IMG/VR virus record: IMGVR_UViG_3300032205_000005
Span: 1-44,996 of that record
Strand: one strand, 5' to 3'
DNA: 44,996 bases
From: a virus
In this document: positions 11,441 to 44,908 of the stretch, in pieces
Position numbering within the stretch: position 1 is the stretch's first letter
Layout: every line of letters begins with the position of its first letter
The notes under the pieces: model-generated
What the model was told of the DNA's origin: nothing
Seen by the model: the letters and a program-made list of their open reading frames with translations, nothing else
Database searches by the model: none
Position numbers and translations under genes: made by a program

Positions 11441-11808
11441 TGCGGCCAGCCTTCCGCGATCTCGAGGCGCAGATGCGGCGTGATTTCGCGCTGCGCCGCG
11501 GTCATGTCGGAGAGCTCCTGCGCTGTCCATGAGCCCACGCCGACGTCGGCGATGACGTGGGTCAGGACGGCGACGAGGGCCGCCAGGCGGTGACGGAACG
11601 GCAGGGCGCGAAAGAGCGGATGCGGCGCATCGGCCTCGGCGAGGGAGTTGCAGAGCGAGATGATGTTCGTCGCGGTGATGGCGAACAGCAGCATCCGCAC
11701 TTCCGCGTCATCCTCGAGCAGGCTCACGGCGCGGGTCACCTGTATGTCGAAGCGCTCCGAGACATGCTGCGCCAGGTCGGCGATGACCCGATTCCTTTTG
11801 TCGCTCAT
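11437..11808 (-). CDS. Hypothetical helical protein, first gene of the embedded minus-strand operon
   Basis: A 123-residue, mostly helical protein with no recognised family. It has a moderately hydrophobic middle (LLFAITATNIISLCNSLAEA) that falls short of a clear membrane segment. The ATG at 11808 has a strong GGGAGGGGGG leader. The gene is divergent from the methyltransferase at 11888, so the 79-bp gap between them must hold promoters for both directions if this operon is transcribed separately. Confidence 0.75.
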   Translation of the reverse strand: MSDKRNRVIADLAQHVSERFDIQVTRAVSLLEDDAEVRMLLFAITATNIISLCNSLAEADAPHPLFRALPFRHRLAALVAVLTHVIADVGVGSWTAQELSDMTAAQREITPHLRLEIAEGWPQ

Positions 11809-11887
11809 ACGGCCCCCCTCCCTGCCCTTGCCGGCCGGGGCAGGACGACTCAAGCTAGCAGCCCCACCACACGCCGACGAGGCCCCC

Positions 11888-12442
11888 ATGACCGTGATTT
11901 GGAGCCCGCTGCCCGCGGGCCCGTTCGACCTTTGCTACCTCGACCCGCCCTGGCGTTGGAAGACGCGCACGCCCGCCGGCGACGGCAAGGCGCCGCCCTA
12001 CGGCCGCGTCGAGCTCGAGGACCTGAAGCGCCTGCCGATCGGCGACATCCTCGCCGCCGACGCCATGGTCGCGATGTGGGTGATCGACAGCCACCTCGAG
12101 CAGGCGATGGAGCTCGCCCGGGCCTGGCGCCTCTCCTACCGCACCGTCGGCTTCTACTGGGTCAAGCGGACCGTGAACGGCAAATGGCACGTCGGCACCG
12201 GCAAATTGACCAGGGCAAACCCGGAGCAGTGCCTGCTCTTTCGGAAGGGTCGCGGCGTCGCCGTCAAGAACCACGGCGTCCGGCGCCTGGTCGAGGCCCA
12301 GGTCCGCGAGCACTCGCGCAAGCCGGACGAGGTCCGGCGCGGCCTCGAGGCCCTGTTCGGGGAGTGCCGGCGGGTCGAGCTCTTCGCCCGGGAGTACGCC
12401 AAAGGTTGGACGGCCTGGGGCGACGGACTGCCCTCCCCGTAG
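11888..12442 (+). CDS. MT-A70-type DNA N6-adenine methyltransferase
   Basis: A 184-residue protein with the MT-A70 signature DPPW (CYLDPPWRW, about 18-26), the following AMVAMWVIDSHLEQA strand-helix, YRTVGFYWVKR, and the SAM-site-like C-terminal ELFAREYAKGWTAWGDG. Family enzymes transfer a methyl group from SAM to adenine N6. With no restriction enzyme nearby it is probably an orphan methylase protecting phage DNA or timing its use. The first hairpin of the following structured leader overlaps its stop codon. Confidence 0.92.
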   Translation: MTVIWSPLPAGPFDLCYLDPPWRWKTRTPAGDGKAPPYGRVELEDLKRLPIGDILAADAMVAMWVIDSHLEQAMELARAWRLSYRTVGFYWVKRTVNGKWHVGTGKLTRANPEQCLLFRKGRGVAVKNHGVRRLVEAQVREHSRKPDEVRRGLEALFGECRRVELFAREYAKGWTAWGDGLPSP

Positions 12443-12505
12443 GGGGCAGGCTATTGTCCCGCAGGGGACAATGGGCTAGAGAGGGGGCGGGCGAATTGCG
12501 CCCGC
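12428..12505 (+). promoter_or_regulatory. Three consecutive hairpins in the leader of the TGT-like gene
   Basis: In order: CTGCCC/GGGCAG (12428-12449, over the upstream stop), ATTGTCCC/GGGACAAT with loop GCAG (12453-12472), and GCGGGCG/CGCCCGC with loop AATTG (12487-12505). None has a T-run. The last ends directly before the AGGACCCCACCA initiation motif. This could be a structured 5' leader, or protein binding sites at DNA level for the 20-bp central palindrome. It does not match a preQ1 riboswitch as I know them. Confidence 0.6.
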
Positions 12506-12506
12506 A

Positions 12507-12517
12507 GGACCCCACCA
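12507..12517 (+). promoter_or_regulatory. GGACCCCACCA translation-initiation motif
   Basis: The copy lies two bases before the GTG at 12520 and supports that non-ATG start. Confidence 0.65.
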
Positions 12518-12519
12518 CC

Positions 12520-13353
12520 GTGAACAAGCTGACCGTGTACGGCCTCCCCCTCAACCCGATGCCCGCCCTCAACGCCCTCCGTGGCGCCTCGTTCTGCGTC
12601 TCCTACGCCACCCGGCAGAAGCTGGGCCGGCAGCTGGCCCAGGCGATCGAGCTCGTCGGCGAGGACCAGATGCTCCTCGTCGACAACGGCGCCTTCACCG
12701 CCTGGAAATCCGGCGTCGACACCATGAACGACGAGGCCTACCTCGAGGGCTTCGCGGCCTGGGCCAACGACATCCTGGCGCGCTGCCCGCAGGCCGTCGC
12801 CGTGCTGCCGGACGTCATCGACGGCACCGTCGAGCAGAACGCGCAGCTGGTCCGCGAGACGATGACGATGTTCGACGACTGCGACCGCCTGATGCCGATC
12901 TGGCATCTGCACGAGCCGATCTCCTACCTGCTCTACCTCTGCGAGACGTTCTCCTTTGTCGGTTTCGGCTCGAGCGGCCAGTACGCTTCGCCGCACAGCC
13001 CGCTCTGGGCCGCCCGCATCGAGGAGGCCTTCGCGGCGATCGCCAGCTGGGAGGCGGAGAGCGACGGCGCCTACGTCCGCCCGCGCATCCACATGATGCG
13101 GGCCCAGTCGAAGCATCACCTGTACCCGTTCGACTCGTCGGATTCGACGAACGTCGCCGTCAACCACGGCGCCCAGCGCAAGCGCGGCGAGGACCTGCCG
13201 GCCTTCGCGGCCCGCGTCGACGGTAAGATCCAGGCGAGCGCCGGCCCCTCCGCCCCGCATCAGGTCGCCCGCCCGCTGCTCGCCCATCTCGAGGCCGCTG
13301 CGGTGCGGGAGGCCTGGTCTTTCGAGGAACCCGAGCTCCGCCTGGCAGCCTGA
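12520..13353 (+). CDS. TGT/DpdA-like protein, putative 7-deazaguanine base-exchange enzyme
   Basis: A 277-residue protein whose motifs follow the TIM-barrel tRNA-guanine transglycosylase fold as seen in phage DpdA-type proteins: LLVDNGAFTAWKSG (about 52-65), AVLPDVIDG with a candidate catalytic Asp (about 99), MPIWHLHEP, FVGFGSSGQYA (about 147-157) and PFDSSDSTNVAVNHGA (about 208-223). DpdA enzymes exchange guanine for preQ0-type bases in DNA; TGT proper acts on tRNA. No queuosine-precursor synthesis genes are visible, so host precursor would be needed. The GTG start is set by the upstream motif. It directly follows the MT-A70 methylase. The substrate is inferred. Confidence 0.65.
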   Translation: MNKLTVYGLPLNPMPALNALRGASFCVSYATRQKLGRQLAQAIELVGEDQMLLVDNGAFTAWKSGVDTMNDEAYLEGFAAWANDILARCPQAVAVLPDVIDGTVEQNAQLVRETMTMFDDCDRLMPIWHLHEPISYLLYLCETFSFVGFGSSGQYASPHSPLWAARIEEAFAAIASWEAESDGAYVRPRIHMMRAQSKHHLYPFDSSDSTNVAVNHGAQRKRGEDLPAFAARVDGKIQASAGPSAPHQVARPLLAHLEAAAVREAWSFEEPELRLAA

Positions 13354-23425: not shown

Positions 23426-25585
23426 TCAGCGCCCCTCCGCCTCGCGCCGCCGGCGCTCTTCCTCGTCCATCAGCTGCTGCTGGTAGGCGCCGTAGCCGCC
23501 GACGAGGCTGGGCCCGCCCGGCGGCAGCCGCTTCTCGCCGCGGGTCCGATAGACCTGATCCAGCTGCGACAGGAACGCGCCCGGGTCCGGCGCCGTCATG
23601 ATGCGGGCATGCGAGATGTTCTCGGCCCGGTTGCGGCCCTGCACGAAATCGGGCGCGAACTTTTCGTAGAGCTTTTTTAGGCCGCCGATGACCGCTTGGT
23701 CCCAGGTCGGCGCCTCGGTGAGGGGCGCCTTGACCTTGACGCCCTCGACGTCGGGAATCTCTTTCTGGCCCTGCTGCCGGCCGGCCGTCGCCGAGGCCGA
23801 CTCGATCTTCTGATGCGTGCCCTGCTGCCGCGCCAAGCCCTCGAGGCGGGCATTGAAGGCCGCCGCCTCGTCGTTGCCGAGCATGATCCGCAATTTCTGC
23901 TGCGACCAGTCCGAGCGCAGGTTGTTCATGCCCTGCGACCAGTCGTTCGTCGCCGGCCCCATGAGCTCGTTGATGCCGTCGCGGGCGCCGATCCGAAAGG
24001 CCGTCTGCTCCTCGCTCGACATGTCGCGCCAGCGGCGCTGGAACTCGTCCGGCCGCTCCGCGCGCTTGAAGAGCTCGCGGCCGTTGTTGACGGCGTCGAC
24101 GATGTCGCTGTCGGTCTTGTAGGTGCGCGAGGCCTCGCCGTAGGCGGAGGTGTTGTCCGGCCGTCGGCTCGCGTTCTCGAGGGCCTCGTTGACGAAACTT
24201 CGCGCCGTCTCGAGGTCCTTCGTCGAGCCGCCGGCGCGCTTCGTCTTGTCGATGCGATCGGTGAGGAGGTCGCGCAGCTGCGTCGAGGAGGTGTAGCCGT
24301 GTTCGCCGCGCGCGTAGTCGCCGAGCTCCATCCAGGCCTGATGTTCGGGCAGCGGCTTCAGCGTGCCCTTGTGGACCGCGTCCGGCACCATGGTGTCGAT
24401 GAAGGCCGCCGCCCGGCCCTGGTCGACCGGCTGGTTGCCGACGAGCCGTTCGGCCTCGTCATAGAGCGCTTTGGCGCGCTGCCGGCGGGCGTCGCGGAGG
24501 TTCTCCGTCATGTCGGCGAAGTTGCTCTCCCGGGGCGCGATCACGCGATCGAGAGCGGAGTTCAAAAGGCTGTTCTCGCCGCGCAGGGATTCGAGCCGGC
24601 GGGTCAGGAAATCGCGGATCGTCTGCTGCTGCGGCCCGGGCTTCGTGTAGAGCCCTTCCGTCTGCCCGCGCAGGCGCGGCGAGACGTCGGACAGCGTCGC
24701 CTCCGGCCCGACGGCCTCGAGCTCCGCGCGGACGCGGGTCGGGCCGCCGGTGTCCTCGATCGCCTGGCCGGCACGGATGGCGGCGGCGGTCCGCGTCGGG
24801 CCGACGCCGGGCAGGTCGATGGTCGCGGCGGTCCGCTCCGGCCCCATCGCCTTGGCGCCGGCGGCGCCGCCGACGGCGCCGCCGACGATGCGGCCGATGT
24901 CGGCCCATTTCTCGAGGCCGAGCTGCTCGAGGGTGTAGCCGGTGCCCTCGGAGATCGCCGCCGGCGCGACGCCCTGGGCAATGAGCTCCTTGATCAGGGC
25001 GACGCCCTTCGCCGAGAGCGGCCCCACCTGGCGCAGGGCGCCCATGACCGAGGTCGGCCCGGCGCCGCCGACGAACTCGCCGACGATCTGCCCGTAATGG
25101 CCGGCCTTGCCGGTCGGCTGATAGTTGATCACCGGGTCGAGGGCGGGGATGCGCTTGACGGCGTCCTGCCGGAAATCCTCCCCCGACGGCCAGACCTTGT
25201 CCGGCTGGCCGGCGATCTGCGCCTCGAGCTTGGCACGATGCTCCGGCCCGTAGAGGTTCTCTTGCAGGTCGAGCCAGCCCTTCTGCAGGCCCTGGTAGAT
25301 GTCGGTCGGGGCGCCGCCGATGCCGACGATGCCGCGAACGACGCCGGAGCCGGCGCCCTTCAGGGCATCGCCGACGACGCCGGAATTGCGCTGCGCCTCG
25401 AGCTCCGCCCGGCGGGCGTCGACGGAAGCCTGGAAACTGTTCCCGGGCGGCAGGGCCGGAGCGCCAGGTGCCGGGGCGCCGGGCGCCGGAGCGCCAGGTG
25501 CCGGGGCTTGCGGCCCGCCCTCGCCGCCGGCGAGCTCGCGGCGGCGCTTCTCGACCCGTTCCTGAAAGCTGGGACCGCCCGCCAT
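23426..25585 (-). CDS. Putative internal virion/DNA ejection protein
   Basis: A 719-residue, mostly helical protein. An N-terminal Pro-Ala-Gly repeat region (APGAPAPGAPAPG, about 25-48) is followed by Gly/Ala-rich segments at about 170-240 that could insert in membranes (GRIVGGAVGGAAGAKAMG), then long charged helices. Size, composition and place after gp7-like and lysozyme genes match the P22 gp20/gp16 slot. The ATG at 25585 is chosen over GTG 25588: GGAGG lies 6 nt upstream and it overlaps the stop as TGATG. Confidence 0.78.
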   Translation of the reverse strand: MAGGPSFQERVEKRRRELAGGEGGPQAPAPGAPAPGAPAPGAPALPPGNSFQASVDARRAELEAQRNSGVVGDALKGAGSGVVRGIVGIGGAPTDIYQGLQKGWLDLQENLYGPEHRAKLEAQIAGQPDKVWPSGEDFRQDAVKRIPALDPVINYQPTGKAGHYGQIVGEFVGGAGPTSVMGALRQVGPLSAKGVALIKELIAQGVAPAAISEGTGYTLEQLGLEKWADIGRIVGGAVGGAAGAKAMGPERTAATIDLPGVGPTRTAAAIRAGQAIEDTGGPTRVRAELEAVGPEATLSDVSPRLRGQTEGLYTKPGPQQQTIRDFLTRRLESLRGENSLLNSALDRVIAPRESNFADMTENLRDARRQRAKALYDEAERLVGNQPVDQGRAAAFIDTMVPDAVHKGTLKPLPEHQAWMELGDYARGEHGYTSSTQLRDLLTDRIDKTKRAGGSTKDLETARSFVNEALENASRRPDNTSAYGEASRTYKTDSDIVDAVNNGRELFKRAERPDEFQRRWRDMSSEEQTAFRIGARDGINELMGPATNDWSQGMNNLRSDWSQQKLRIMLGNDEAAAFNARLEGLARQQGTHQKIESASATAGRQQGQKEIPDVEGVKVKAPLTEAPTWDQAVIGGLKKLYEKFAPDFVQGRNRAENISHARIMTAPDPGAFLSQLDQVYRTRGEKRLPPGGPSLVGGYGAYQQQLMDEEERRRREAEGR
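25455..25507 (-). repeat. 23-bp direct repeat encoding Pro-Ala-Gly units
   Basis: A 23-bp word starting GCCGGAGCGCCAGGTG occurs at 25455-25477 and 25485-25507, period 30 bp. It encodes the APGAP repeats of the internal virion protein. Such repeats may vary in number by slippage. Confidence 0.8.
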
Positions 25586-28500
25586 CACAGGCCTCCCGCG
25601 TTGAAGCCGTACTCTTTTTTGCCGGTCTGCGGGTTCGTCCAGACGTACCAGCCGGTGACCCGAACGGCCTCTTCCTCGTCCCTGACCGGAATCGCGGTCT
25701 TCTTCGTCTCACCGGGCTGCGGCCCGGTCGTGCGGACCGTGCCGTCGGTGTTCTTGTCGGGAAAGGCGGCGTCGTCGACGCGCTCGAATTGCTGCGGTTT
25801 CCAGCCGCCGGTGACGTCCTCCGGCTTGAGGCCGGCGGAGCGGGCCCGGTTCTCCCAGCCGCGCGTGTGGCTTTCGACGCCGCCGCGACGCTCCTCGAGG
25901 ATTTGCCGGGCGACGTTGAACATGCGCGCGCGGCCGGTCGCGGTCAGCGAGCCGCCGCCCTGGATTTGGTTGAAGAAGCCCCAGAGGCGTTGGTCGACGC
26001 CGCCGGCCGACTGCGCGTTCGCGGTTTCCGTCGCCGACACCGTGGAGTTCGGATCGATCGATTTGAACAGCTGCACGACGGCGACCATGTCGGAGATGCC
26101 GTTGCCCTGGCTCAAGGCGCCGCGCAGGCCGCCGACGGCGTTTTCGAGTTTGCGGTAGTCCTTGACCGCCTCGTTGCCCTCCCAGGCCGTGGCGTACTCG
26201 CGGATGCGCTCCGGGGTCTTCGACTCGCGCTCGTCCGGCATCGAGATCGGTTCGGGCTTGATGTTGCCCTTGTCGTCGCGGGTCATGCGCCAGGGGCGTT
26301 TGTCGTCCTTCGTCGTGAAGCGCTCGCGGCGCGGGTCGCCGGGCAGGATGATCTCGTCCTGATTGCCCTGCGCACCGCGACCCGGGATGACCGGGATGTA
26401 CTGGCCGCCGGGCGTGCGCTCGTAGACCGTGCCGTCGGCGCCGGTCACCGTCTGCGCGTTCTTGCCGGCGCCGGTCGTCGCCGCCGACATGGCGTTGATG
26501 CCGCCGACGATCGCGCCAACCATGCCGGCGTCGCCGGACTGAATCGCGTAGCCGAGCGAGCGCATCATGCCCGGCGTCATCATCGAGAGCGCGTCCGGCA
26601 CCAGGCCGAGGCGGTTCGCGGCGGCGACGGCGTGCGCCGGAATCCCGCCGGTCGCCTGCGGATCGCCGGGTCGCGGCTGCGGCTGCTGCGGTGCCGGTGC
26701 TGGTGTCGGCGCCGGGGTCGGCGCGGGTGTCGGCGCCGGGGTCTGCACGATCGGCGCCGGCACGGCCGGCGCGTTGCGCTGACCCGGTCCGGTCTGCCGG
26801 CGCACGGACGGCGTCGGTTCGGTTTGCGCGTCGATGATCGGCTGCATCGGCTCCGAGCCGACGACGGCGCCCTCGCCCTGCGGGCGCGGCTGCACGACGA
26901 GGCTCGCCTGCGGCCCCGAGCCTGGCGGCGGCGGCGGCGGCTGCGCCTGGGCCAGCTGCTGCGGCACGAAGTTAGGATCGGCGGAGGCGACCTGCACGCC
27001 GCCGTCGGGGCGGCGCGGCATCTGCGGCGGTGGTTCCGGCTGCGGCGTCGGCGCCGGCAGCGGCTGCGCCACGGCCTCGGCGGCCTGGCCGGGGAGGGGC
27101 GCGATCGGCGGCGTCTGCGGCGGCGGCGCCCCCGGGGGAGCTCCGCCGCCGCCGCCGAGCGGCACCGGCTGGAACAGTGGCGCTCCGGCATTCGTCTGCG
27201 AGGGGACCGGGTTGCCGGGTGTATTGGGGGCGCCGGGCGGAACGCCGCCTGGTGCGCCTGCGGGGCCCGCTGGCGGGCTTCCGCCCCCTCCGGCCATGGC
27301 ACCACCCACGGCCTTGGCAATGCCGCCCAGGACGCCCCCAGGGCCGCCCTGACCGCCGCCCTGGCCCTGCATGCCCTGCACCATGCCGTTCAGCTGCCCG
27401 AGCATGCCCTGCAGGCCGCCGGGGACCCGGGAGGCCATCGCCATGAAGGCCTGGCGGATCGGCGCCGGCGCCTGCGCCAGGGCGGCCTCGATCTGCTGCA
27501 TGGTCGGAACCCCGCCGGCGGGAGCTCCGCCGGCGGGTCCTCCAGCGGCGGGAGCCGGCCCGCCGCCAGGCGCGCCGCCGCGAAGAGCGTTCAGGACAGG
27601 GAGGCCCTCGTCTGGCTCCTTCTCGCCGCGGATTTCGCCGTGGCCTTTGACACGGTCGACGCCGATGCCGAGCTGCCCCTGCAGCTGCTTCGTCAGCTTC
27701 GTCGCCGCCTCGATCTGCTGCGGCGTCGCGTCCTTGGAGTTGCCGACAAGCGAGATGCCGATGCTGTTCGAATTGTCGAAACCGCTGCCGGCATGCGTGT
27801 GGTTGGTCCGCGCCGAGAGCGGCGCCGCCTGCACGATCGAACCGTCGCGATCGACGAGGAAGTGGTAGCCGTAGGGCACGCCGCCCCGGTTCGGATCGCC
27901 GCGCGAAATCTTCAGAGCGCTGTCGAGGTCGGGCGTCGCCGTGTGGTGCAGGACGATGCCGCTAAACGGCTGCGCGTTCGCGGTCGCGGTCTGCCCGAAT
28001 CTCTGCCCCGGCTGAAACACCGGCCGGACCTGCAGGTCGGGCGACTGGAAGACGTCGCCGCTCCCGCCGGTGCCGATCGGCCGCGCCGGCGGCGTCGGCT
28101 GCGGCTGCGCGGCGGTGCCGCCCTGCTGCGCGTAGACATTCGGCGGAATGCTCTTGATCAGCTTCTGGAAATCCAATTTTTCCATCGGCCGGCCGTCGAT
28201 CGAGAACTGCCCCGGCAGGCCGTTCGGCGCCTGCTTCAGGCGGCCCTCGCGCACGGCCTTGATGAACTCCGGCGAGTCGCCGATGCGGTTGAGCTCCGCC
28301 TCCGAGATGCCGAGCTTGCGGCCCATCTCGATGAAGCTCTGTGTGATCGGACCCTTGAGGCCGAGGGCGGCCTGGGCCTGCTGCGCCGGCGCCTGCGGCA
28401 CGAACGTGGGATCGTTCGACGCCAGCTGCACGCGGCCCTGCGGGCCCTGCGCGACGTTGCCGGGGATCGGTACGGTCGCCGAACCGGCCGGCGCCGGCGC

Positions 28501-29502
28501 CGGCGCCGTGGCAGCCGGCGGCGCCGGCACGGGTGGCTTTGGCGGCACCGCAACGGCCGGCGCGGGCGCCGGTCCAGAGCCGGTCGCCGTCGAGTATTCG
28601 GGACCCGGTGCCGGCTGGCCGCCGGCGCCGCCGCCGGCGGCAGCAGCTGCACCTGGCGCGACGTAGGTCCGCACGCCCGGCTGGCCGGGCACTTTCGCCA
28701 GCTGCGGCGCCGCAGCGGGACCGGCCGTCGAGCCCACCTGGCCGGTCCAGTGCCGGACGAAATCGCCGACGGTCGCAGTCTTCGGCAGGGGGCCGAGATT
28801 CGACAGCGCGTTCGTGCCCAGCACGCTCGCGACCGGCGCGTTCGGATCGGCGCGGAACAGCTTCGTCGCGCCGCCGACGCCCTGCTGGTGCGCCAGGTAG
28901 AGCTCGCCCGGCGTCGGCTCGCGGCCGAGCACGGCGGCGAGCTCCGCCTTGTTGCCGAGGGTGAACTGGTTGAAGGCGCGGAACTGGTTGTCGACGTCGG
29001 CGAGATTCGCGTTGGTGACGCCGTACTGCTTGCCGGTCGACGGCAGAAACTGAAACAGCCCCATCGCGCCGGAGGTCGGGTTCTTGATCAGTGGATTGGC
29101 GCCGCCGCCACTTTCGACGCCGATGACGCGGCGATAGTAGTCCTCCGGCAGGCCGCTCTGCTGCGCGGCGGCCTTGATCTTCGCCTCGATGTCGGCCGAG
29201 AGCGGTTTGTTGGAGAGCTCCTGCGGCGACGACACGCCGGGCGGCAATTGCCCCGGCTGACCGGAATAGGGACCGCCGGGCTGTGACAGCTTCGAAGCGT
29301 CGAGCCATTCCTGGCCCGATTTGCGCTGGAGCTCGCGGGCGTAGCTCGTGTCGTACTGGTTCTTGAAGGCTTGCCCGATGCCGGCAATGCCCTTCTGCAG
29401 CTGTTCGGAAACGTCGACCGGACCCCAGACCGGCTTTGACGGCGCCGGCGTCGGCGTGAGCGGGTTGTTGCGGACAAGGAACGGGGAAATCTGCAGCGCC
29501 AT
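25585..29502 (-). CDS. Giant virion protein with lytic transglycosylase and amidase domains
   Basis: A 1305-residue protein. A lytic transglycosylase domain lies at about 100-220 (YYRRVIGVESGGG with catalytic Glu130; SGAMGLFQFLPSTGKQYGV). An Amidase_2/PGRP domain lies at about 508-640: IVLHHTAT with His519/520, YGYHFLVDRDG, SIGISLVGN, VKGHGEIRGEKEPDEG with zinc-ligand candidates His621 and Asp631. Pro/Ala/Gly-rich linkers separate them (about 285-345) and follow (about 640-990). A helical C-terminal part ends the protein. It lies among ejection genes, so it probably enters the virion and cuts peptidoglycan at DNA entry, glycan strand and peptide stem both. The cytoplasmic lysin is a different gene. 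Confidence 0.88.
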   Translation of the reverse strand: MALQISPFLVRNNPLTPTPAPSKPVWGPVDVSEQLQKGIAGIGQAFKNQYDTSYARELQRKSGQEWLDASKLSQPGGPYSGQPGQLPPGVSSPQELSNKPLSADIEAKIKAAAQQSGLPEDYYRRVIGVESGGGANPLIKNPTSGAMGLFQFLPSTGKQYGVTNANLADVDNQFRAFNQFTLGNKAELAAVLGREPTPGELYLAHQQGVGGATKLFRADPNAPVASVLGTNALSNLGPLPKTATVGDFVRHWTGQVGSTAGPAAAPQLAKVPGQPGVRTYVAPGAAAAAGGGAGGQPAPGPEYSTATGSGPAPAPAVAVPPKPPVPAPPAATAPAPAPAGSATVPIPGNVAQGPQGRVQLASNDPTFVPQAPAQQAQAALGLKGPITQSFIEMGRKLGISEAELNRIGDSPEFIKAVREGRLKQAPNGLPGQFSIDGRPMEKLDFQKLIKSIPPNVYAQQGGTAAQPQPTPPARPIGTGGSGDVFQSPDLQVRPVFQPGQRFGQTATANAQPFSGIVLHHTATPDLDSALKISRGDPNRGGVPYGYHFLVDRDGSIVQAAPLSARTNHTHAGSGFDNSNSIGISLVGNSKDATPQQIEAATKLTKQLQGQLGIGVDRVKGHGEIRGEKEPDEGLPVLNALRGGAPGGGPAPAAGGPAGGAPAGGVPTMQQIEAALAQAPAPIRQAFMAMASRVPGGLQGMLGQLNGMVQGMQGQGGGQGGPGGVLGGIAKAVGGAMAGGGGSPPAGPAGAPGGVPPGAPNTPGNPVPSQTNAGAPLFQPVPLGGGGGAPPGAPPPQTPPIAPLPGQAAEAVAQPLPAPTPQPEPPPQMPRRPDGGVQVASADPNFVPQQLAQAQPPPPPPGSGPQASLVVQPRPQGEGAVVGSEPMQPIIDAQTEPTPSVRRQTGPGQRNAPAVPAPIVQTPAPTPAPTPAPTPAPAPQQPQPRPGDPQATGGIPAHAVAAANRLGLVPDALSMMTPGMMRSLGYAIQSGDAGMVGAIVGGINAMSAATTGAGKNAQTVTGADGTVYERTPGGQYIPVIPGRGAQGNQDEIILPGDPRRERFTTKDDKRPWRMTRDDKGNIKPEPISMPDERESKTPERIREYATAWEGNEAVKDYRKLENAVGGLRGALSQGNGISDMVAVVQLFKSIDPNSTVSATETANAQSAGGVDQRLWGFFNQIQGGGSLTATGRARMFNVARQILEERRGGVESHTRGWENRARSAGLKPEDVTGGWKPQQFERVDDAAFPDKNTDGTVRTTGPQPGETKKTAIPVRDEEEAVRVTGWYVWTNPQTGKKEYGFNAGGL

Positions 29503-36487: not shown

Positions 36488-37654
36488 CTAAGCGTCCGCC
36501 GGCGCCGCGACGAAGACGGTGACGACACCGAACTGCACCAGCTGCGCGGTCTGGCTGTCGGGGTCTTTCTTCGTGAAAACTTTTCCGACGCCGTACACGG
36601 ACTCGACGCCGCGACCGATGATGAACTGGTAGTCATCCTCGCGCCGTTCGGTCGGCTTCGGCATCTGTCCCCAGGCGACCGCAGCGGCGTTCTGACCGCA
36701 CAGGAACATCATCTGCACGTCATCGCCGCCGTTGCCGGCGCCGGGCAGCGTGCAAAAATCGGAAATCTCCGGCACCTCTCTGATGATCACGCCGCGATAG
36801 ATGAGATCACCATCTTGGAAGATGGGGTTTTTCTCCATGCCGCCGCCTTCACGCGGACGCGCATTGAGATTGGCGTTGTAGATCGCCGGATCGGCCGCGA
36901 GATCGCGGAAAGGCTCCTGACCGCAGAACAGGACGAAAAATTCGCGGCCCTGGTCCTCGTTATCCCTGTACGGGGTGATGCCCGGCACGACCGAGCGCGC
37001 GATGCGCTTGGCGAGCAGGACGAGCGCCGCCGAGGCCTTGTCGTCGACCTTGTCGACGTTGAGCAGGGAGCCGGACACGGAGCCGAGCACCTGATTGCTC
37101 TTCTTCGCGCCGAACAGCACCCGATCGGTGTTGTCGCTCAACCATTTGTTCTTCTGCGCCGTCGTCGCCGAATCCCAGAGGATGCCGTTGACGCGCTGAC
37201 CGGCCGTTGCCTCGTTGCCTAGATTAGCCGGAGGCATTTCCGTAGGAAGCGCAGCAAACGCCTGAACGAGCTCGTCACGAAGCAAGCAATTGCCCCACTC
37301 CGTGAGCAACGGCCGAACAATTTCAAGTTGTTCGAAAGAACTTTTCCGCTGTTGTGCTTTCGTCAACAGCACTGCGTTGCGAGACCAGTCGACCCACAGC
37401 CTCATGCCGTAGTTGATGAGCTTCTCTTCGTTGCCGGTCAGCGGTCCAGTGCTGACGCCGGGCCCGCGCAGGCTCGAGACGATCGGGATATTGATGATAT
37501 CGCCGCCGTCCTTGAGCTCTTGCGTCACCTGAATAATGGCGGTGGGGCCTTCTCCCATGTACGGGGAGAAGTAATTACCGCGCCGCCATTCGCGGAATAT
37601 TGATTTCCGCCATTTGATGAGTTGGTTGTTGATATGGGTCTGGGTAACGGCCAT
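36488..37654 (-). CDS. Major capsid protein (DUF4043/N4-gp56-like)
   Basis: A 388-residue protein with the pattern of the DUF4043 / N4-gp56-type coat family: an N-terminal THINNQLIKWRKSIFREWRRGNYFSPYMGEG segment, then QELKDGGDIINIPIVSSLRGPGV, LRLWVDWSRNAVLLTKAQQRK and a C-terminal GRGVESVYGVGKVFTKKDPDS. It should have the HK97 fold and form the icosahedral shell. It follows scaffold by 33 nt and precedes two decoration genes, the standard head order. Confidence 0.9.
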   Translation of the reverse strand: MAVTQTHINNQLIKWRKSIFREWRRGNYFSPYMGEGPTAIIQVTQELKDGGDIINIPIVSSLRGPGVSTGPLTGNEEKLINYGMRLWVDWSRNAVLLTKAQQRKSSFEQLEIVRPLLTEWGNCLLRDELVQAFAALPTEMPPANLGNEATAGQRVNGILWDSATTAQKNKWLSDNTDRVLFGAKKSNQVLGSVSGSLLNVDKVDDKASAALVLLAKRIARSVVPGITPYRDNEDQGREFFVLFCGQEPFRDLAADPAIYNANLNARPREGGGMEKNPIFQDGDLIYRGVIIREVPEISDFCTLPGAGNGGDDVQMMFLCGQNAAAVAWGQMPKPTERREDDYQFIIGRGVESVYGVGKVFTKKDPDSQTAQLVQFGVVTVFVAAPADA

Positions 37655-37687: not shown

Positions 37688-38557
37688 CTATCTGCGTGCG
37701 TCGCGCCCGGCTGCAAAGATCGCCTCTTCGCTGCCGTCCTCGGCCGGGCCTTGCAGGCCCGAGCCGTTGGTCGCGCCGAGGCGCGACGTGGCAGTGGGAA
37801 GACGCGGGGCTCGCGGCGCTGGGGCGAACGTGCCGTCGTCGCGGCGGGGCTGCGGAGGGCGGCCCTGCCCGGCGAGGTACTCGTCGATGATCCGTTGCTT
37901 GTAGGCGTCGAGATCGTCGCCGATCTCGTTCTGGCGCTGTTGGTGTCCGTACCAGGCGACGATCGCTTCCCCCGGCGAGGCCGAGTTCATGACCCCGAAA
38001 TAGGTCTGCGGATCGGTGCCCTGTGAGACGTGGCCGTACCAGGCCTGCCAGGCGTCGTTCCAAACGTCCGCGTGACGCATCGAGGCGAGCTCGAAATCCG
38101 TCGTCACACGGGTCTTCGCAATCTCCGCGCGGAACTGCTCCTCGAGGCCGCTCCGAATTTCGGAAATCACTCCGTCTGGGTCTTCGAACAGGCGTTGCGA
38201 CAGCGGCGTCTTCGCAGCTTCCGCCGCGCGTTGCCGCTCCTGCTCCTGCTGTTCGAACCGACGCGCCCTCTGCTCCCATTCCTGCCGCCGTTCACGCTCG
38301 CTCATCAGGGCCTGCAGGACGCCGCCCAGTGAGCGGTCCTCCGGCACGCCGTCGTCTTGCGAGGGACGCTGTGTCGGCGCCGGCTGCGACGCCGGCGTCT
38401 CGCGGGACCGTTGTGGAGTCGGTCCCTGGCGGTTGATCGTGTCGATCGCGTCGGAAACGGCGTGATCGACGGGAGAGCGGTCATCAATCAGGCGTGACGG
38501 GGGCGCGGAGTCGTCAGGCGCGGTTGCGCTGTCGAAAATCTCGCGATCGTCCGCCAT
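37688..38557 (-). CDS. Scaffolding protein
   Basis: A 289-residue, highly charged helical protein with a Glu/Gln/Arg coiled coil (SERERRQEWEQRARRFEQQEQ, about 85-110) and a disordered basic C-terminus (RRDDGTFAPAPRAPRL). Composition and position directly before the capsid gene are typical of scaffolds, which direct procapsid assembly and bind coat through the C-terminus. The ATG at 38557 is favoured because AGGGG lies 9 nt upstream; the ATG at 38566 overlaps that site. Confidence 0.82.
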   Translation of the reverse strand: MADDREIFDSATAPDDSAPPSRLIDDRSPVDHAVSDAIDTINRQGPTPQRSRETPASQPAPTQRPSQDDGVPEDRSLGGVLQALMSERERRQEWEQRARRFEQQEQERQRAAEAAKTPLSQRLFEDPDGVISEIRSGLEEQFRAEIAKTRVTTDFELASMRHADVWNDAWQAWYGHVSQGTDPQTYFGVMNSASPGEAIVAWYGHQQRQNEIGDDLDAYKQRIIDEYLAGQGRPPQPRRDDGTFAPAPRAPRLPTATSRLGATNGSGLQGPAEDGSEEAIFAAGRDARR

Positions 38558-38566
38558 GCGATTCAT

Positions 38567-39579: not shown

Positions 39580-41808
39580 TTAAGCTCCTCCGGTCGGCGC
39601 CGGCCGCGGCGGGGGTTTCTCGAGCATGCCGGGCGGCGCCTGTTCGATCGTGTCACCCTCGAGATTGGCCTTGCGGGCCTGGGCGGCAAGCAACATCGCC
39701 TTCATGGCCCCGTCCTGCTGGCGCAGGCCGAGGTCGGTGCCCTGCTGCTGTGCCGCCAGCTGCTGGTCGCCGTAGATTTTGTCGATGCCGGCGCGGCCCT
39801 GCTCGAGCGACATCTGAGCGCCGGTCTGCGCCGCGTCGGCCTGGGCATGCGCCAGGCGCGCCTTGGCCTGGTTGACTTCGAACAGGCCCGGCTCCTGCAC
39901 CGGGAGATGGCCGCCGGAGGACACCCGGGCCTCGATCTCGCCGGCCTTCGCCAGGTCGAGCCTCGCCTTGGCGAGGTCGGCGGCGGTGTCGATCTGCTGG
40001 TTGCCGCCGCCGTCCATGCCGGCGGTCGCGGCCTCGGCGTGCGCCTTGGCGGCGTTCGCCATATTGAGCTCCGCCTTCGACTGCAGTTCCTGAATCTGCG
40101 CCTGCATGCCCTGCATCTTCAGCATGATCTCTTGCTGCTGGATCGGTTGCGGCTGCGAGGCCTTGGCGAGCTCCATGAGCACGCGCTGCTTCACGCTCGA
40201 CGGCAGCGGCGACAATTCGACGATCGCCGTCGGCGGCACCTGAATGCCGCCCTTCGCGAGCAGCACCAATGTCTCGAGCGTGTCGGCTTGCGCGTTCAGC
40301 GCGTCGCCGCCCTCGTCGATGATGATGTCGACGTCGAGGCTCGCCAGCTGGTTGATCGCCACGACCTGGCCGGTGATTTCGTCCTGCTGCCAGCCGTTGA
40401 CCTGAATGAATTGCGCGAGGTTGTCGTCGTCGGTGACACGAATCCAGCGATCGCTCGTCCAGTATTTCTGCACTGTGTTCCACGTCTTGCGGTACACGCG
40501 CAGTTTCCAATTGCGCCACGCCAAAACAAAGCCACCGAGTTCGGCTATGCCTGCGGCCTGCAGCAGCTGGATCGCGCGACCGCTTTCGGCGGGTATGTCC
40601 GTACCTATGAGGCCTGGGTTGGGCCCGTAGGTATCGATCTCGTTTTTGGCATCCTCGAGCAGCGTCAGATTGCCTTGCACGATCTGCGCCGACTGCTGAT
40701 CCTCGGTGAGAATTTCCTTGCCGGGATTTTTGACAACCCAACCATCGCTGCGCGCATATTCCCTTCTCGCGACCTCGACGTCGTCGACGGCGCCTTCATC
40801 GGCGATGACCTTGCGCGAGTTCAGCGTGTGCAAGGCTTTCGAGCGGCGATGATTGATCTCATCCTGCGGTGATTTGAGATCGCGGAAGAAGCCGTAGCGA
40901 TCGCCGTCCTGATCGACCTCGGCGGAGAATATTTCGTACTTGTGGACGCTGACGCCGCGCTCGTCGAAATAGGGCGAGCGGCCGAACTCAAGCACGATGT
41001 TGCCGCAGTAGATGCAGTAGTGCCAATCTTTGCCGAGCTTGTACCACATGTCGACGATGCGGACCTGGCGCTCCGGCTTTGAAATCCAGGCGATGCGGTT
41101 GCGCTCGTCGCCGCGGTTCCAATCGGTCTGCGGTCCATTCTCGATGTAGTCCGCGAGATCATCGGCTGAATCTGGAAACGCATCCTGCGCCTCGTCCAAA
41201 TCGACCCAGCGGCTCGTGCCCATGAAGCGCGCGTCGTCGAAATCATCCCGGGTCGAGCGCGCGTCATAGAAAAAATCGCGCATGTCGACCGGGTCCCAAC
41301 CGATCTCTGGATCGCCTTTGTCGCCCTGGATGGTGACGAGCTCGACGCCGGCGATGCCGCGGATGGCGCAACGGCGGGCACCGTTCGCGGCCTTCTGCTC
41401 CCAGTCCCAGCCGAGCGCGTATTGAATCACCTTCGTCGCGATTTCGGCGCCGTCGTCGGAGGCGCGCTGCGGGTTGCGCGGGTAGGCCTTCGGCGATTGC
41501 CGCAGTTTCTCGAGGATGCCGCAGACGGTGTTGATCTTGCGCTTGATGCGGTTGAACGTGACGACCGGCTGGTTGCGGTCCTTCAGCGTCTTGAGCTCTT
41601 CGCGGTCCCATTGGACGGCGTGGTAGTAGCGCTCCGCCTCCGCCGCCTCGGCGTTCTCGTCGGTCTTCGCCGAAACGGCGTTCTCAAACTTTTTCTTGAG
41701 CTTCGTGAGCGACAGGCGCGGGCCGTCGTCATCACCGCGCTGTTGCGGAGCGCGGGGATCAGGAGGCCGTCGGGCGGGGAACGGCAGAACCTGAGCGGTT
41801 GCGGCCAG
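39580..41808 (-). CDS. P22-like portal protein with apparent CTG start
   Basis: A 742-residue P22-type portal (P22 gp1 is 725). Conserved parts are ERYYHAVQWDREELKTLKDRNQPVVTFNRIK (wing), DPEIGWDPVDMRDFFYDA, GFFRDLKSPQDEINHRRSKALH (stem), GPNPGLIGTDIPAESGRAIQLLQAAG, and a Gln/Ala-rich C-terminal barrel. No ATG, GTG or TTG occurs in frame between the upstream stop (41871-41869) and GTG 41430, which would delete the conserved N-terminus. CTG 41808 has GGAG (41819-41816) 7 nt upstream and follows the previous stop by 4 nt, so it is the proposed start. A frameshift or sequence error upstream is the alternative. Confidence 0.9.
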   Translation of the reverse strand: MAATAQVLPFPARRPPDPRAPQQRGDDDGPRLSLTKLKKKFENAVSAKTDENAEAAEAERYYHAVQWDREELKTLKDRNQPVVTFNRIKRKINTVCGILEKLRQSPKAYPRNPQRASDDGAEIATKVIQYALGWDWEQKAANGARRCAIRGIAGVELVTIQGDKGDPEIGWDPVDMRDFFYDARSTRDDFDDARFMGTSRWVDLDEAQDAFPDSADDLADYIENGPQTDWNRGDERNRIAWISKPERQVRIVDMWYKLGKDWHYCIYCGNIVLEFGRSPYFDERGVSVHKYEIFSAEVDQDGDRYGFFRDLKSPQDEINHRRSKALHTLNSRKVIADEGAVDDVEVARREYARSDGWVVKNPGKEILTEDQQSAQIVQGNLTLLEDAKNEIDTYGPNPGLIGTDIPAESGRAIQLLQAAGIAELGGFVLAWRNWKLRVYRKTWNTVQKYWTSDRWIRVTDDDNLAQFIQVNGWQQDEITGQVVAINQLASLDVDIIIDEGGDALNAQADTLETLVLLAKGGIQVPPTAIVELSPLPSSVKQRVLMELAKASQPQPIQQQEIMLKMQGMQAQIQELQSKAELNMANAAKAHAEAATAGMDGGGNQQIDTAADLAKARLDLAKAGEIEARVSSGGHLPVQEPGLFEVNQAKARLAHAQADAAQTGAQMSLEQGRAGIDKIYGDQQLAAQQQGTDLGLRQQDGAMKAMLLAAQARKANLEGDTIEQAPPGMLEKPPPRPAPTGGA

Positions 41809-41812
41809 GCGG

Positions 41813-42001
41813 TTACTCCGGCGGGGCGGCGGGAGCGGCGGCGGGCTCGTTCCAGGGTGCAGATGGCATCACGGCGAGATTCGAAATCTCGAGCAGCACG
41901 AGATGGACGTCGGACGGTTCGACGCCGAGCTCGCGGTGCTCGCGGATGGTGTCGATGAGGGCCTGCTTGAAGGCCTCGCGCACGGCGGCAGGCGTCGACA
42001 T
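41813..42001 (-). CDS. Small hypothetical protein upstream of portal
   Basis: A 62-residue protein (VREAFKQALIDTIREHRELGVEPSDVHLVLLEISNLAV), helical with an Ala/Pro tail. AAGGAGG precedes the ATG at 42001. Its stop codon is 4 nt from the proposed CTG start of portal, so portal translation may be coupled to it. Confidence 0.73.
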   Translation of the reverse strand: MSTPAAVREAFKQALIDTIREHRELGVEPSDVHLVLLEISNLAVMPSAPWNEPAAAPAAPPE

Positions 42002-42068
42002 GGCGGCCTCCTTCAGGGACGCGCGGTCGGGGGAGAAACGGAAGAGCCCGGCCGCGCGGTTGCCTCGA

Positions 42069-42476
42069 TCAGGTGAGCGCACGCTGGGCGCGCTCGAGAG
42101 AACGGCCGAGACTATCAAGCACGGCGCCGATTTCGTCCAGGGCCGCCATCTGGCGCTTGAACAGCGGCGCATCGGGATGCCCCGGCCGGATCATCTGCTT
42201 AAGCCCGGCGTCCGGCGAGATGCCGCCCTCGAGGGGGCCGGCCAGGGCGATCTCCAGAACGAGGGCCTGCTTGGATAGGTCCTGCGATCGCTTCAGGAGC
42301 TCCTCCAGGCGTTTTCCGACAGCGCCGGCCCCAACCGGGCCGGGCAGGTCCCGAAACGGCTCAGAGGCCATTTTCGGGCGTTCCCGGCCCTCTTGGATTG
42401 GGGCCAGCCGGCCCGCCATCGTCCGAATGTCCTTCTCCATGTCGAGGACGGCCTTGTCTTCGTTGGTGTCGGGCAT
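42069..42476 (-). CDS. Hypothetical helical protein
   Basis: A 135-residue protein predicted almost wholly helical (EDKAVLDMEKDIRTMAGRL, RQMAALDEIGAVLDSLGRSLERAQRAL). No family was recognised. It overlaps the preceding gene by 116 nt in another frame, an unusually long overlap here. Confidence 0.7.
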   Translation of the reverse strand: MPDTNEDKAVLDMEKDIRTMAGRLAPIQEGRERPKMASEPFRDLPGPVGAGAVGKRLEELLKRSQDLSKQALVLEIALAGPLEGGISPDAGLKQMIRPGHPDAPLFKRQMAALDEIGAVLDSLGRSLERAQRALT

Positions 42477-42630
42477 GGGCGCGAGCCTGCAGGTTGGCGA
42501 GGGATTGGGAGAGAAGGCGGTTCTTGTAGGCCTCCGCCTCGCGGAGCGTCATCCGCGGCGCCGGCGGCTGCCACAAACCGAGGGCGCGAAAAACAGCGCT
42601 AAAAACCCGGGCGAAAAACGCGCGGATCAC
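42361..42630 (-). CDS. Small basic hypothetical protein
   Basis: An 89-residue protein with an amphipathic or membrane-associating N-terminus (MIRAFFARVFSAVFRALGLW) and a helix (LREAEAYKNRLLSQSLANLQ). The last 40 residues overlap the next gene and look unstructured. The GTG start overlaps the previous stop as GTGA. The 3' half could be incidental. Confidence 0.55.
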   Translation of the reverse strand: MIRAFFARVFSAVFRALGLWQPPAPRMTLREAEAYKNRLLSQSLANLQARAHARHQRRQGRPRHGEGHSDDGGPAGPNPRGPGTPENGL

Positions 42631-43001
42631 GGCAGGTCCTGCAATTCGGCGAGGCCGGCGTCAGTCAGGGTGACGCCGAGCATCTTTTCGGTGCGGCCGG
42701 GAACGTGCGTCGCGGCCTCGCGCCAGGCGACCTGGCTGCCCTGCACCCGCGGCTCAAAATAGGAATCGCAGGTTTCGACCAGGCCGCGCTTTTTCAGGGC
42801 CCGAATCGCCCGCCGCGTCGAGTGCTCCGCCTGCTCGATCGCCTTGGCCTCGCCAAGCTTCGTGGCACCGTTCGGCCAGAAAGCCCGCCGGAGCTCGCGG
42901 ATCGGCCAGGCCGGCCGCACGGAAAACACCCAGTCGGCCGGCGCCGGCGCGGCGAGGAGGCCGAGGAGGCGGCGCTGCTGTTTCGAGATGCCCGGTTTCA
43001 T
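42627..43001 (-). CDS. Winged-helix-type DNA-binding protein
   Basis: A 124-residue protein. KAIEQAEHSTRRAIRALKKRGLVETCDSYFEP (about 50-80) has the recognition-helix and wing pattern of winged helix-turn-helix proteins, with LTDAGLAELQDL at the end as in MarR-like dimerisation helices. It may regulate late genes. It lies between TerL and portal, an odd place for a regulator. Confidence 0.72.
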   Translation of the reverse strand: MKPGISKQQRRLLGLLAAPAPADWVFSVRPAWPIRELRRAFWPNGATKLGEAKAIEQAEHSTRRAIRALKKRGLVETCDSYFEPRVQGSQVAWREAATHVPGRTEKMLGVTLTDAGLAELQDLP

Positions 43002-43014
43002 GGGGGCAGGATAG

Positions 43015-44490
43015 CTAAACCACCTTCGCCGTCGACGCCGATTTTTGCCCCATCACCTTGTAGCCGTTGACGAGGGTGAGGGACGGCTTTTTCGGCAACT
43101 TGCCGAACACGGCGACGTCGAGCAGCTGGCCGACGAGGCCGAGGGCGTCGTGGATGTCGTCGTGCCGGCCGCGGGGGAAGGCAAGGAGCTCCGCCTCCAG
43201 CGCGTGGCGCTCGAGCAGGTTCTTCGAATACCACAGGCCCCGGGTGGCAATGTAGGCGCGCATCGACTGGGCGCGGATGCCCTTGTCGCCGCGGGCCGGA
43301 AACTGCTGCCGATCGGTATGGGCATGGCGCTCGCTCGAGGCGCGCTCGAGCCAGGGCCCGACGCCGGCCTGGATTTGCCCGCTTTCCTCGGCCCAAGACA
43401 GGGGCCGCCACCAGCGCACGAGATCGCACCATGTCTCGACCCAGATGTCGGAGGTCACCCGCTCGCGCCAGAGATCCAAGAGCCAGGGCCGGTCATAGGC
43501 GTCGAGGCCGATGACGACATGAACCGTGTAGTCGCCGCCGTCGGCAGTGGTGGCGTAGTCCGAACCGCCGTAGACCCGCAGCTGCGCGCGCGGCGGCATG
43601 TTCTCCTCGCTGACCGGATGCAGCCAGGAGAGCTTCCAGTAATCGCCCTCCGGCGCCGTCGGCCGCTGCTGGTAGAGGGACAGCCACAGCTGCGGGTCGC
43701 GCTGCGCCTCGACAACCATCTGGTCGGTGAACCATTCCGGCCAGAGCCGCTCGCCCTCGGCGCGGCCGAGGGGGTCGTCCTTGCCCTCCGCAATCATGGG
43801 GATCGAGAGCACATCCCATTCCTCGCCCTCCTCCTCGAGCAGAAAGCCGGCGAGGTCGTTCTCGTGCCAGCGGGTGAGGATGATCAATTGCCTCGCGTGA
43901 GGCTTTAGGCGCGGTCTGAAATCGAATTTATACCAGTCGATCGTCTTCTGACGCTGCGTTTCACTTGCCGCTTCTTCTCTTCCTTTGACAGGATCGTCGA
44001 TTGTTCCAAAATCTGCTCGAAAACCTTGAATCTGACTTCCGACGCCGGCGGACAGGTATTCCCCCATCTGTTCGGTGCGATCACCCTCCCGGGGCGCCAG
44101 CTGCCAGCGGCCGGCGGCGCGATTGGTGAGCGAGAGCGAGATGCCGAGGGTCGGCTCGTGCTCGTCGATGAGATTGCGGACGCGGCGGCCGAACCGCTCC
44201 GCGAGCTCCTCGCTGTGCGACGCGGCGATGACCGATCGGTAGGGGTTGCGGGCGAGGAACCAGGGCGCGAACAGGACCGAGCCGTAGGTCGATTTGGCGC
44301 TCCCGGGCGGCATGAAAATCATCTGCTTGCGCTTGCCCTCGCCGCCCTCGAGGCGCTCGAGCGCCGCGATGATCAGCCGGTGATGCTGGGCCGGCTCAAA
44401 GCCGGCGTGCTGGCACCACTCAGTGAGGCTTTCGCGGACCCGAAACAGGGTCTTCGCGCGCAGCAGCAGTTCCGTTTGCCGGTCGATCAT
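43015..44490 (-). CDS. Terminase large subunit
   Basis: A 491-residue packaging motor. The ATPase has an atypical Walker A, MPPGSAKSTYG (about 60-70), Walker B-like FGTIDDPVKG (about 160-168) and the coupling segment LIILTRWHENDLAG. The nuclease domain has YGGSDYATTADGGDYT and the distal HDDIHDALG acidic site. This form (PPGSAKS) is common in podoviral terminases. It cuts concatemers and pumps DNA through the portal. It overlaps the small terminase gene by 71 nt. Confidence 0.95.
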   Translation of the reverse strand: MIDRQTELLLRAKTLFRVRESLTEWCQHAGFEPAQHHRLIIAALERLEGGEGKRKQMIFMPPGSAKSTYGSVLFAPWFLARNPYRSVIAASHSEELAERFGRRVRNLIDEHEPTLGISLSLTNRAAGRWQLAPREGDRTEQMGEYLSAGVGSQIQGFRADFGTIDDPVKGREEAASETQRQKTIDWYKFDFRPRLKPHARQLIILTRWHENDLAGFLLEEEGEEWDVLSIPMIAEGKDDPLGRAEGERLWPEWFTDQMVVEAQRDPQLWLSLYQQRPTAPEGDYWKLSWLHPVSEENMPPRAQLRVYGGSDYATTADGGDYTVHVVIGLDAYDRPWLLDLWRERVTSDIWVETWCDLVRWWRPLSWAEESGQIQAGVGPWLERASSERHAHTDRQQFPARGDKGIRAQSMRAYIATRGLWYSKNLLERHALEAELLAFPRGRHDDIHDALGLVGQLLDVAVFGKLPKKPSLTLVNGYKVMGQKSASTAKVV

Positions 44491-44908
44491 CGGCGGGCCC
44501 CTTCAGCCGGGCGAGCTCGCGCTCGACCTCCTTCAGCGTCAAGACGATCGCCGGCCGGCTGTCGTCGGGCTTCTCGGCCTCGGCCGCCTTCGGCTCGCGC
44601 CAGGCCGGCAGGCGGGTTTTGAGCAGGGCCTCGTTCGCGCGGAGCGCGACGCCGAGGTCGACCCGCTGGCTCGCGAGCTCGAGCATGTTCGCCGCCGCGG
44701 TCGCCAGGATTTCCGCCTCGCTGTAGCCGAGCTCGCGGCCGTACCAGTAGCGCAGCACGGTGAGGTCGACGCCGAGGATGTCGGCGATCGTCTGCTCCGG
44801 TATCCGGTTGAAGGCGTGCAGGCGGACCGTGGCCCGGGTGGCATCGGTCGGGTTGTGCGGCGGAAAGCCAAGCGCGATGAGCTCGCGGCGGATGCGCTTG
44901 CGCCTCAT
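44420..44908 (-). CDS. Terminase small subunit
   Basis: A 162-residue protein. An N-terminal helix-turn-helix (EQTIADILGVDLTVLRYWYGREL, about 36-58) for DNA recognition is followed by a helical oligomerisation core (AAANMLELASQRVDLGVALRANEALLKTRLP) and a C-terminal tail that would touch TerL. The ATG at 44908 overlaps the Acb2-like stop (ATGA). The gene spans the artificial ends of the window; its 5' part is repeated at 1-67. Confidence 0.9.
   Translation of the reverse strand: MRRKRIRRELIALGFPPHNPTDATRATVRLHAFNRIPEQTIADILGVDLTVLRYWYGRELGYSEAEILATAAANMLELASQRVDLGVALRANEALLKTRLPAWREPKAAEAEKPDDSRPAIVLTLKEVERELARLKGPADDRPANGTAAAREDPVSGPRKPH

Follow-up and report, generated by a model that had tools for sequence, protein, structure and literature searches.

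The window, by which we mean the whole stretch of viral DNA that was analyzed (44,996 nt), encodes a P22-type portal protein on its minus strand. The portal frame is open from stop to stop across positions 39580-41868 (762 codons). It matches positions 1-593 of the 594 in the Pfam profile PF16510, with 344.2 bits against a cutoff of 26.1, and this full-length match above the gathering score marks it as a P22-like portal. The P22_portal domain spans frame residues 58-608 (40045..41697, minus strand; E = 1.9e-102), and PHROGs assigns the protein to phrog_156, portal (E = 2.3e-90). The gene sits in a head gene block together with TerL (43015-44490) and MCP (36488-37654), both identified with PHROGs. 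The gene at 37688-38566, which occupies the scaffold position of Pam1 and Pam5, had no family match.

The two ends of the contig (1-155 and 44842-44996) overlap by 155 nt with a single mismatch, G at 29 and A at 44870, which is silent and lies at a third codon position. So, the genome is probably complete, either circular or circularly permuted, with a length of about 44.84 kb, and the sample contains strain variation or occasional errors. Elsewhere in the window, 11660-13353 (plus strand) encodes a DNA methyltransferase of the MT-A70 type and, after it, a protein resembling queuine tRNA-ribosyltransferase, which is possibly a DNA-modification gene of the DpdA type. Also, a 1305-amino-acid protein at 25585-29502 (minus strand) has transglycosylase-like and amidase-like regions and is a candidate virion-associated cell-wall-degrading protein.

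The portal frame does not contain any ATG, GTG, or TTG ahead of the GTG at 41430 (41428..41430, minus strand), as an earlier note on this DNA had described. This codon lies 146 codons from the open end of the frame and 126 codons after a CTG at 41808. Starting at the GTG would remove about 90 residues of the P22_portal domain, and the GTG has no Shine-Dalgarno (SD) sequence, so we rejected it as the portal start. This leaves the portal gene with no canonical codon that is usable as a start. When codon usage was scanned across the window, in no other gene did the coding signal begin around 100 codons ahead of the first canonical start. The portal gene is therefore an exception, and CTG starts do not appear to be in general use by this phage.

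The CTG (41806..41808, minus strand) has a GGAG core at 41816..41819 (minus strand) with a spacer of 7 nt. The TAA of an upstream open reading frame is at 41815-41813, so that the CTG begins 4 nt later (TAA-CCGC-CUG). Translation from this codon gives 742 amino acids (39580..41808, stop codon included). All of these details had been given correctly in the earlier note, which proposed the CTG as the start. The combination is uncommon by chance: of the 1652 CTGs that the window contains, just 3 are preceded by an SD core at 5-9 nt and also have a stop triplet close before them. On the other hand, the strength of the predicted duplex with the anti-SD (-6.1 kcal/mol) is typical of this phage, and there is no super-SD to compensate for the codon.

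To compare this start to those of related proteins, we scanned IMG/VR and GTDB contigs with alignments, which gave many relatives. Single-sequence scans of viral and genome collections found no relatives, so alignments were needed. In a collection of named phages, the matches were at most 34% identical, and none of the portals reached 80% coverage of the query. The closest relatives (L150, L006/L151, L007, L152, L153, and L154) are 54-63% identical over the aligned protein. L150, which is the closest full-length relative, has 742 residues, just like the product from the CTG, while the others have 685-702.

Eight distinct close relatives share an N-terminal motif, MAA.AQVLPFP. Their N-termini include MAAGASPNVLPFPG (L150), MAGASAAILSFLPR (L006/L151), MASSANVVPFPRR (L007), MAAGAKVLPFPQR (L152), MAAQVLAFPTA (L153), and MAASAQILQFPAS (L154). 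The motif is also seen in L155, which has a TTG start (LAATVLAFPG), and in L160/L161/L210 (MPAQVLQFPQ). In the window, the N-terminus is (CTG)AATAQVLPFPARR, and the conserved tail, AATAQVLPFPAR, corresponds to residues 2-13 and lies directly 3' of the CTG (41770..41805, minus strand). Relative to all 8 of the 8 motif-bearing relatives (seven with ATG and one with TTG), CTG 41808 is at the start of the motif. In a multiple alignment, it shares a column with the ATG of L007, L152, and L154, whose N-termini are of the same length; L150 is two residues longer, L151 is one residue longer, and L153 is two residues shorter. At the DNA level, the block [ATC]TGGC is shared at the start codon, with TTG in L155.

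We also built a profile from the first 13 residues of the relatives, excluding the window, from a small alignment that was made by hand and in which the TTG of L155 was entered as M. Against the six-frame translation of the window, the only significant match was at this site (E = 0.0004; the next best was 4.9). Finally, the distance from the start to the conserved core is mostly 10-50 codons in 167 complete relatives, and the CTG is at 40. Because the CTG occupies the homologous start position, with an SD at 5-9 nt and a stop just before it, its proposal as the start has held up: the sequence comparisons strongly support this position, about as well as such comparisons can settle it.

How unusual is a CTG here? 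Among 170 distinct relatives, we counted 138 ATG, 13 GTG, and 16 TTG starts; these were chosen automatically from the SD and the codon, so the counts are approximate. For the other three (L071, L103, and L187), no start was chosen, as they are cut off by contig ends. The earlier note had proposed such a comparison of start codons across related phages: a canonical start is present in each of the 167 complete relatives, and none of them has a CTG. The window has the only non-canonical start among 168 distinct complete portal N-termini (itself and the 167 relatives). We also inspected five relatives whose start is near the core (L111, L118, L124, L139, and L145) for hidden CTG starts and saw ordinary ATG or TTG codons by eye. 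A general leaning of portals towards weak starts is not seen, as 83% use ATG. TTG is the most plausible start in the portals of L155 (3001-3003), L089 (2935-2937), and L072; in L155, this codon, a weaker start than ATG, aligns with the CTG of the window. Across bacteria, CUG accounts for 0.024% of initiation codons (PMC11497404).

The stop codon just before the CTG belongs to a small open reading frame of 62 amino acids (41813..42001, minus strand), which is a candidate for translational coupling. It has a strong SD of its own (AAGGAGG, -11.7 kcal/mol) and a weak coding signal in the codon-usage scan. In coupled pairs, the stop and the start overlap or are a few nucleotides apart, as they are here (4 nt from TAA to CTG), and reinitiation is efficient only over short distances and drops steeply with distance (PMC10666635). 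L152 has the same layout of SD, stop, and start but with ATG (GGAGGGCTAAGCGATG), and in L020 and L023 a stop abuts the ATG of the portal. Coupled initiation at the CUG would therefore be plausible, although we did not find a homolog of the 62-residue frame in the fetched loci and its coding signal is weak. More broadly, there are three small open reading frames (124, 135, and 62 amino acids) between TerL and the portal (41813-43001, minus strand). Part of the 135-residue frame matches sequence that precedes the portal of L150, and in L153 and L155 TerL almost abuts the portal.

We propose that this is a natural CUG-initiated portal gene that starts at CTG 41808 and encodes a 742-residue P22-type portal protein, with a probability of roughly 70%. 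The CUG would have arisen by a single base change from the ATG or TTG that the closest relatives use, and it would be read as formyl-methionine by the initiator tRNA. The ribosome would be placed by the GGAG seven nucleotides upstream, probably with help from termination of the 62-residue frame four nucleotides before the CUG, so that initiation would be partly coupled; coupling might then make up for the weak codon. It is observed that the gene lacks a canonical start, that the CUG is at the homologous position, and that an SD and a stop lie just upstream of it; the proposal supposes in addition that the C is truly present in the phage DNA. Several observations count against it. CUG gives just 0.86% of the protein yield of AUG, compared to 58.4% for GUG and 29.8% for UUG (PMC11497404), so that an essential protein would be poorly served by it. 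Furthermore, the SD is only average, no relative has a CTG, and the upstream frame lacks a homolog in the fetched loci.

The main competitor is a one-base error in the metagenome consensus, or a strain chimera, so that the true codon at 41806-41808 would be canonical and the gene would be ordinary. CTG is one substitution away from each of ATG, GTG, and TTG, and one of these is found in every complete relative. Also, the mismatch between the overlapping contig ends points to variants or errors in the sample, so this base might be an error or a minor variant. The sequence is a single contig, and an exact DNA scan for a second one with this start region found none. However, the mismatch between the ends is silent and at a third position, which is more like strain variation than error, and no frame breaks are evident in the other genes of the window. 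By our rough, unmeasured judgement, an error at exactly this base and with this change should be rarer even than CTG starts are among annotated bacterial genes. We consider an error or chimera to be unlikely, though it deserves the most weight among the alternatives; this weight and the probability given above are judgements, not computed probabilities. The earlier note had raised an indel as the possible artefact, which is not needed: because homology stays in a single frame across the start region, no indel is involved, and the anomaly would disappear only if one base of the start codon were wrong.

That same homology bears on the idea that the portal has no initiation of its own and is made as a frameshift product of the upstream frame, or from an out-of-frame ATG at 41732, through either a -1 shift or an indel that escaped detection. 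The neighboring frame does have this ATG, and third-position G+C is high upstream of it in that frame (as judged by eye), which is what suggested the idea. But the tail from 41808 to 41732 matches the relatives in the portal frame itself, a change of frame near 41720 would spoil that match, and ATG 41732 has no evident SD. We rejected this scenario as very improbable. Starting at a downstream near-cognate codon, such as CTG 41787 or CTG 41715, seems only slightly better. It would give a shorter N-terminus, like that of Pam1 or CBW1004C-Prop1, and in some portals the conserved core does follow the start by only 10-15 residues, a length that CTG 41715 would fit. Neither codon has an SD, though, and all close relatives include the VLPFP-like tail, which is kept in the window, upstream of 41715. 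A downstream start would leave the conserved frame and the motif without a reason.

If CTG 41808 is the start, is its weakness useful? The earlier note suggested that a CTG could limit the portal to its 12 copies. This does not hold: relatives with ATG (Pam1) and with GTG (Pan3) also form 12-chain assemblies in the PDB (from its sequence, 9vyf appears to be the Pan3 portal), and 138 of the 167 relatives use ATG. The number of 12 follows from assembly of the ring, whose size is a feature of the protein itself. It would be a reasonable, weaker conjecture that low synthesis of the portal is tolerated since few copies are needed. It is doubtful that the CUG was selected as a low-efficiency start, with about one per cent of the strength of AUG and used mainly by ribosomes that finish the upstream frame, so that the portal would be scarce relative to the capsid protein and its output would depend on coupling or on the level of IF3 in the host.

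Gene callers restricted to ATG, GTG, and TTG would shorten this portal by about 126 residues or overlook where it truly starts, so this case shows that aligned homologs can reveal CTG starts that are hidden by annotation. If the base is real, then this phage is a natural test of how an essential single-vertex protein can be made from a start that is around a hundred times weaker than AUG.

It is useful to compare this gene to known systems. The P22-type portals of alphaproteobacterial (Rhizobiales-associated) and related phages, including L150, L007, L152, and Pseudanabaena phages Pan3, Pam5, and Pam1, belong to the same Pfam family and have a similar order of head genes (TerL, portal, scaffold position, MCP). 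The closest of them have the same N-terminal tail and start at the same aligned position. They differ in the start codon, which is ATG, GTG, or TTG in the relatives, while the window has no canonical start. CTG has been proposed as the start of other phage genes: ORF10 of phage phiB124-14 (PMC3338817), ORFs 1 and 52 of RsoM1USA (PMC6389784), and orf55 of TP-J34 (PMC3952083) are predicted CTG-start frames. In the passages that describe them, these are annotation calls, while the position in the window is backed by aligned homologs. For an essential packaging gene, the closest precedent that we found is terS of the Streptococcus thermophilus phage TP-J34, which also has a non-canonical start with an SD (AAGGAGGT) close upstream (PMC3952083). 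It starts with AUU instead of CUG, encodes the terminase small subunit instead of the portal, and had its start confirmed by re-sequencing. Together, these cases suggest that a CTG-initiated portal is uncommon but not unprecedented, and most likely a rare example of something already known.
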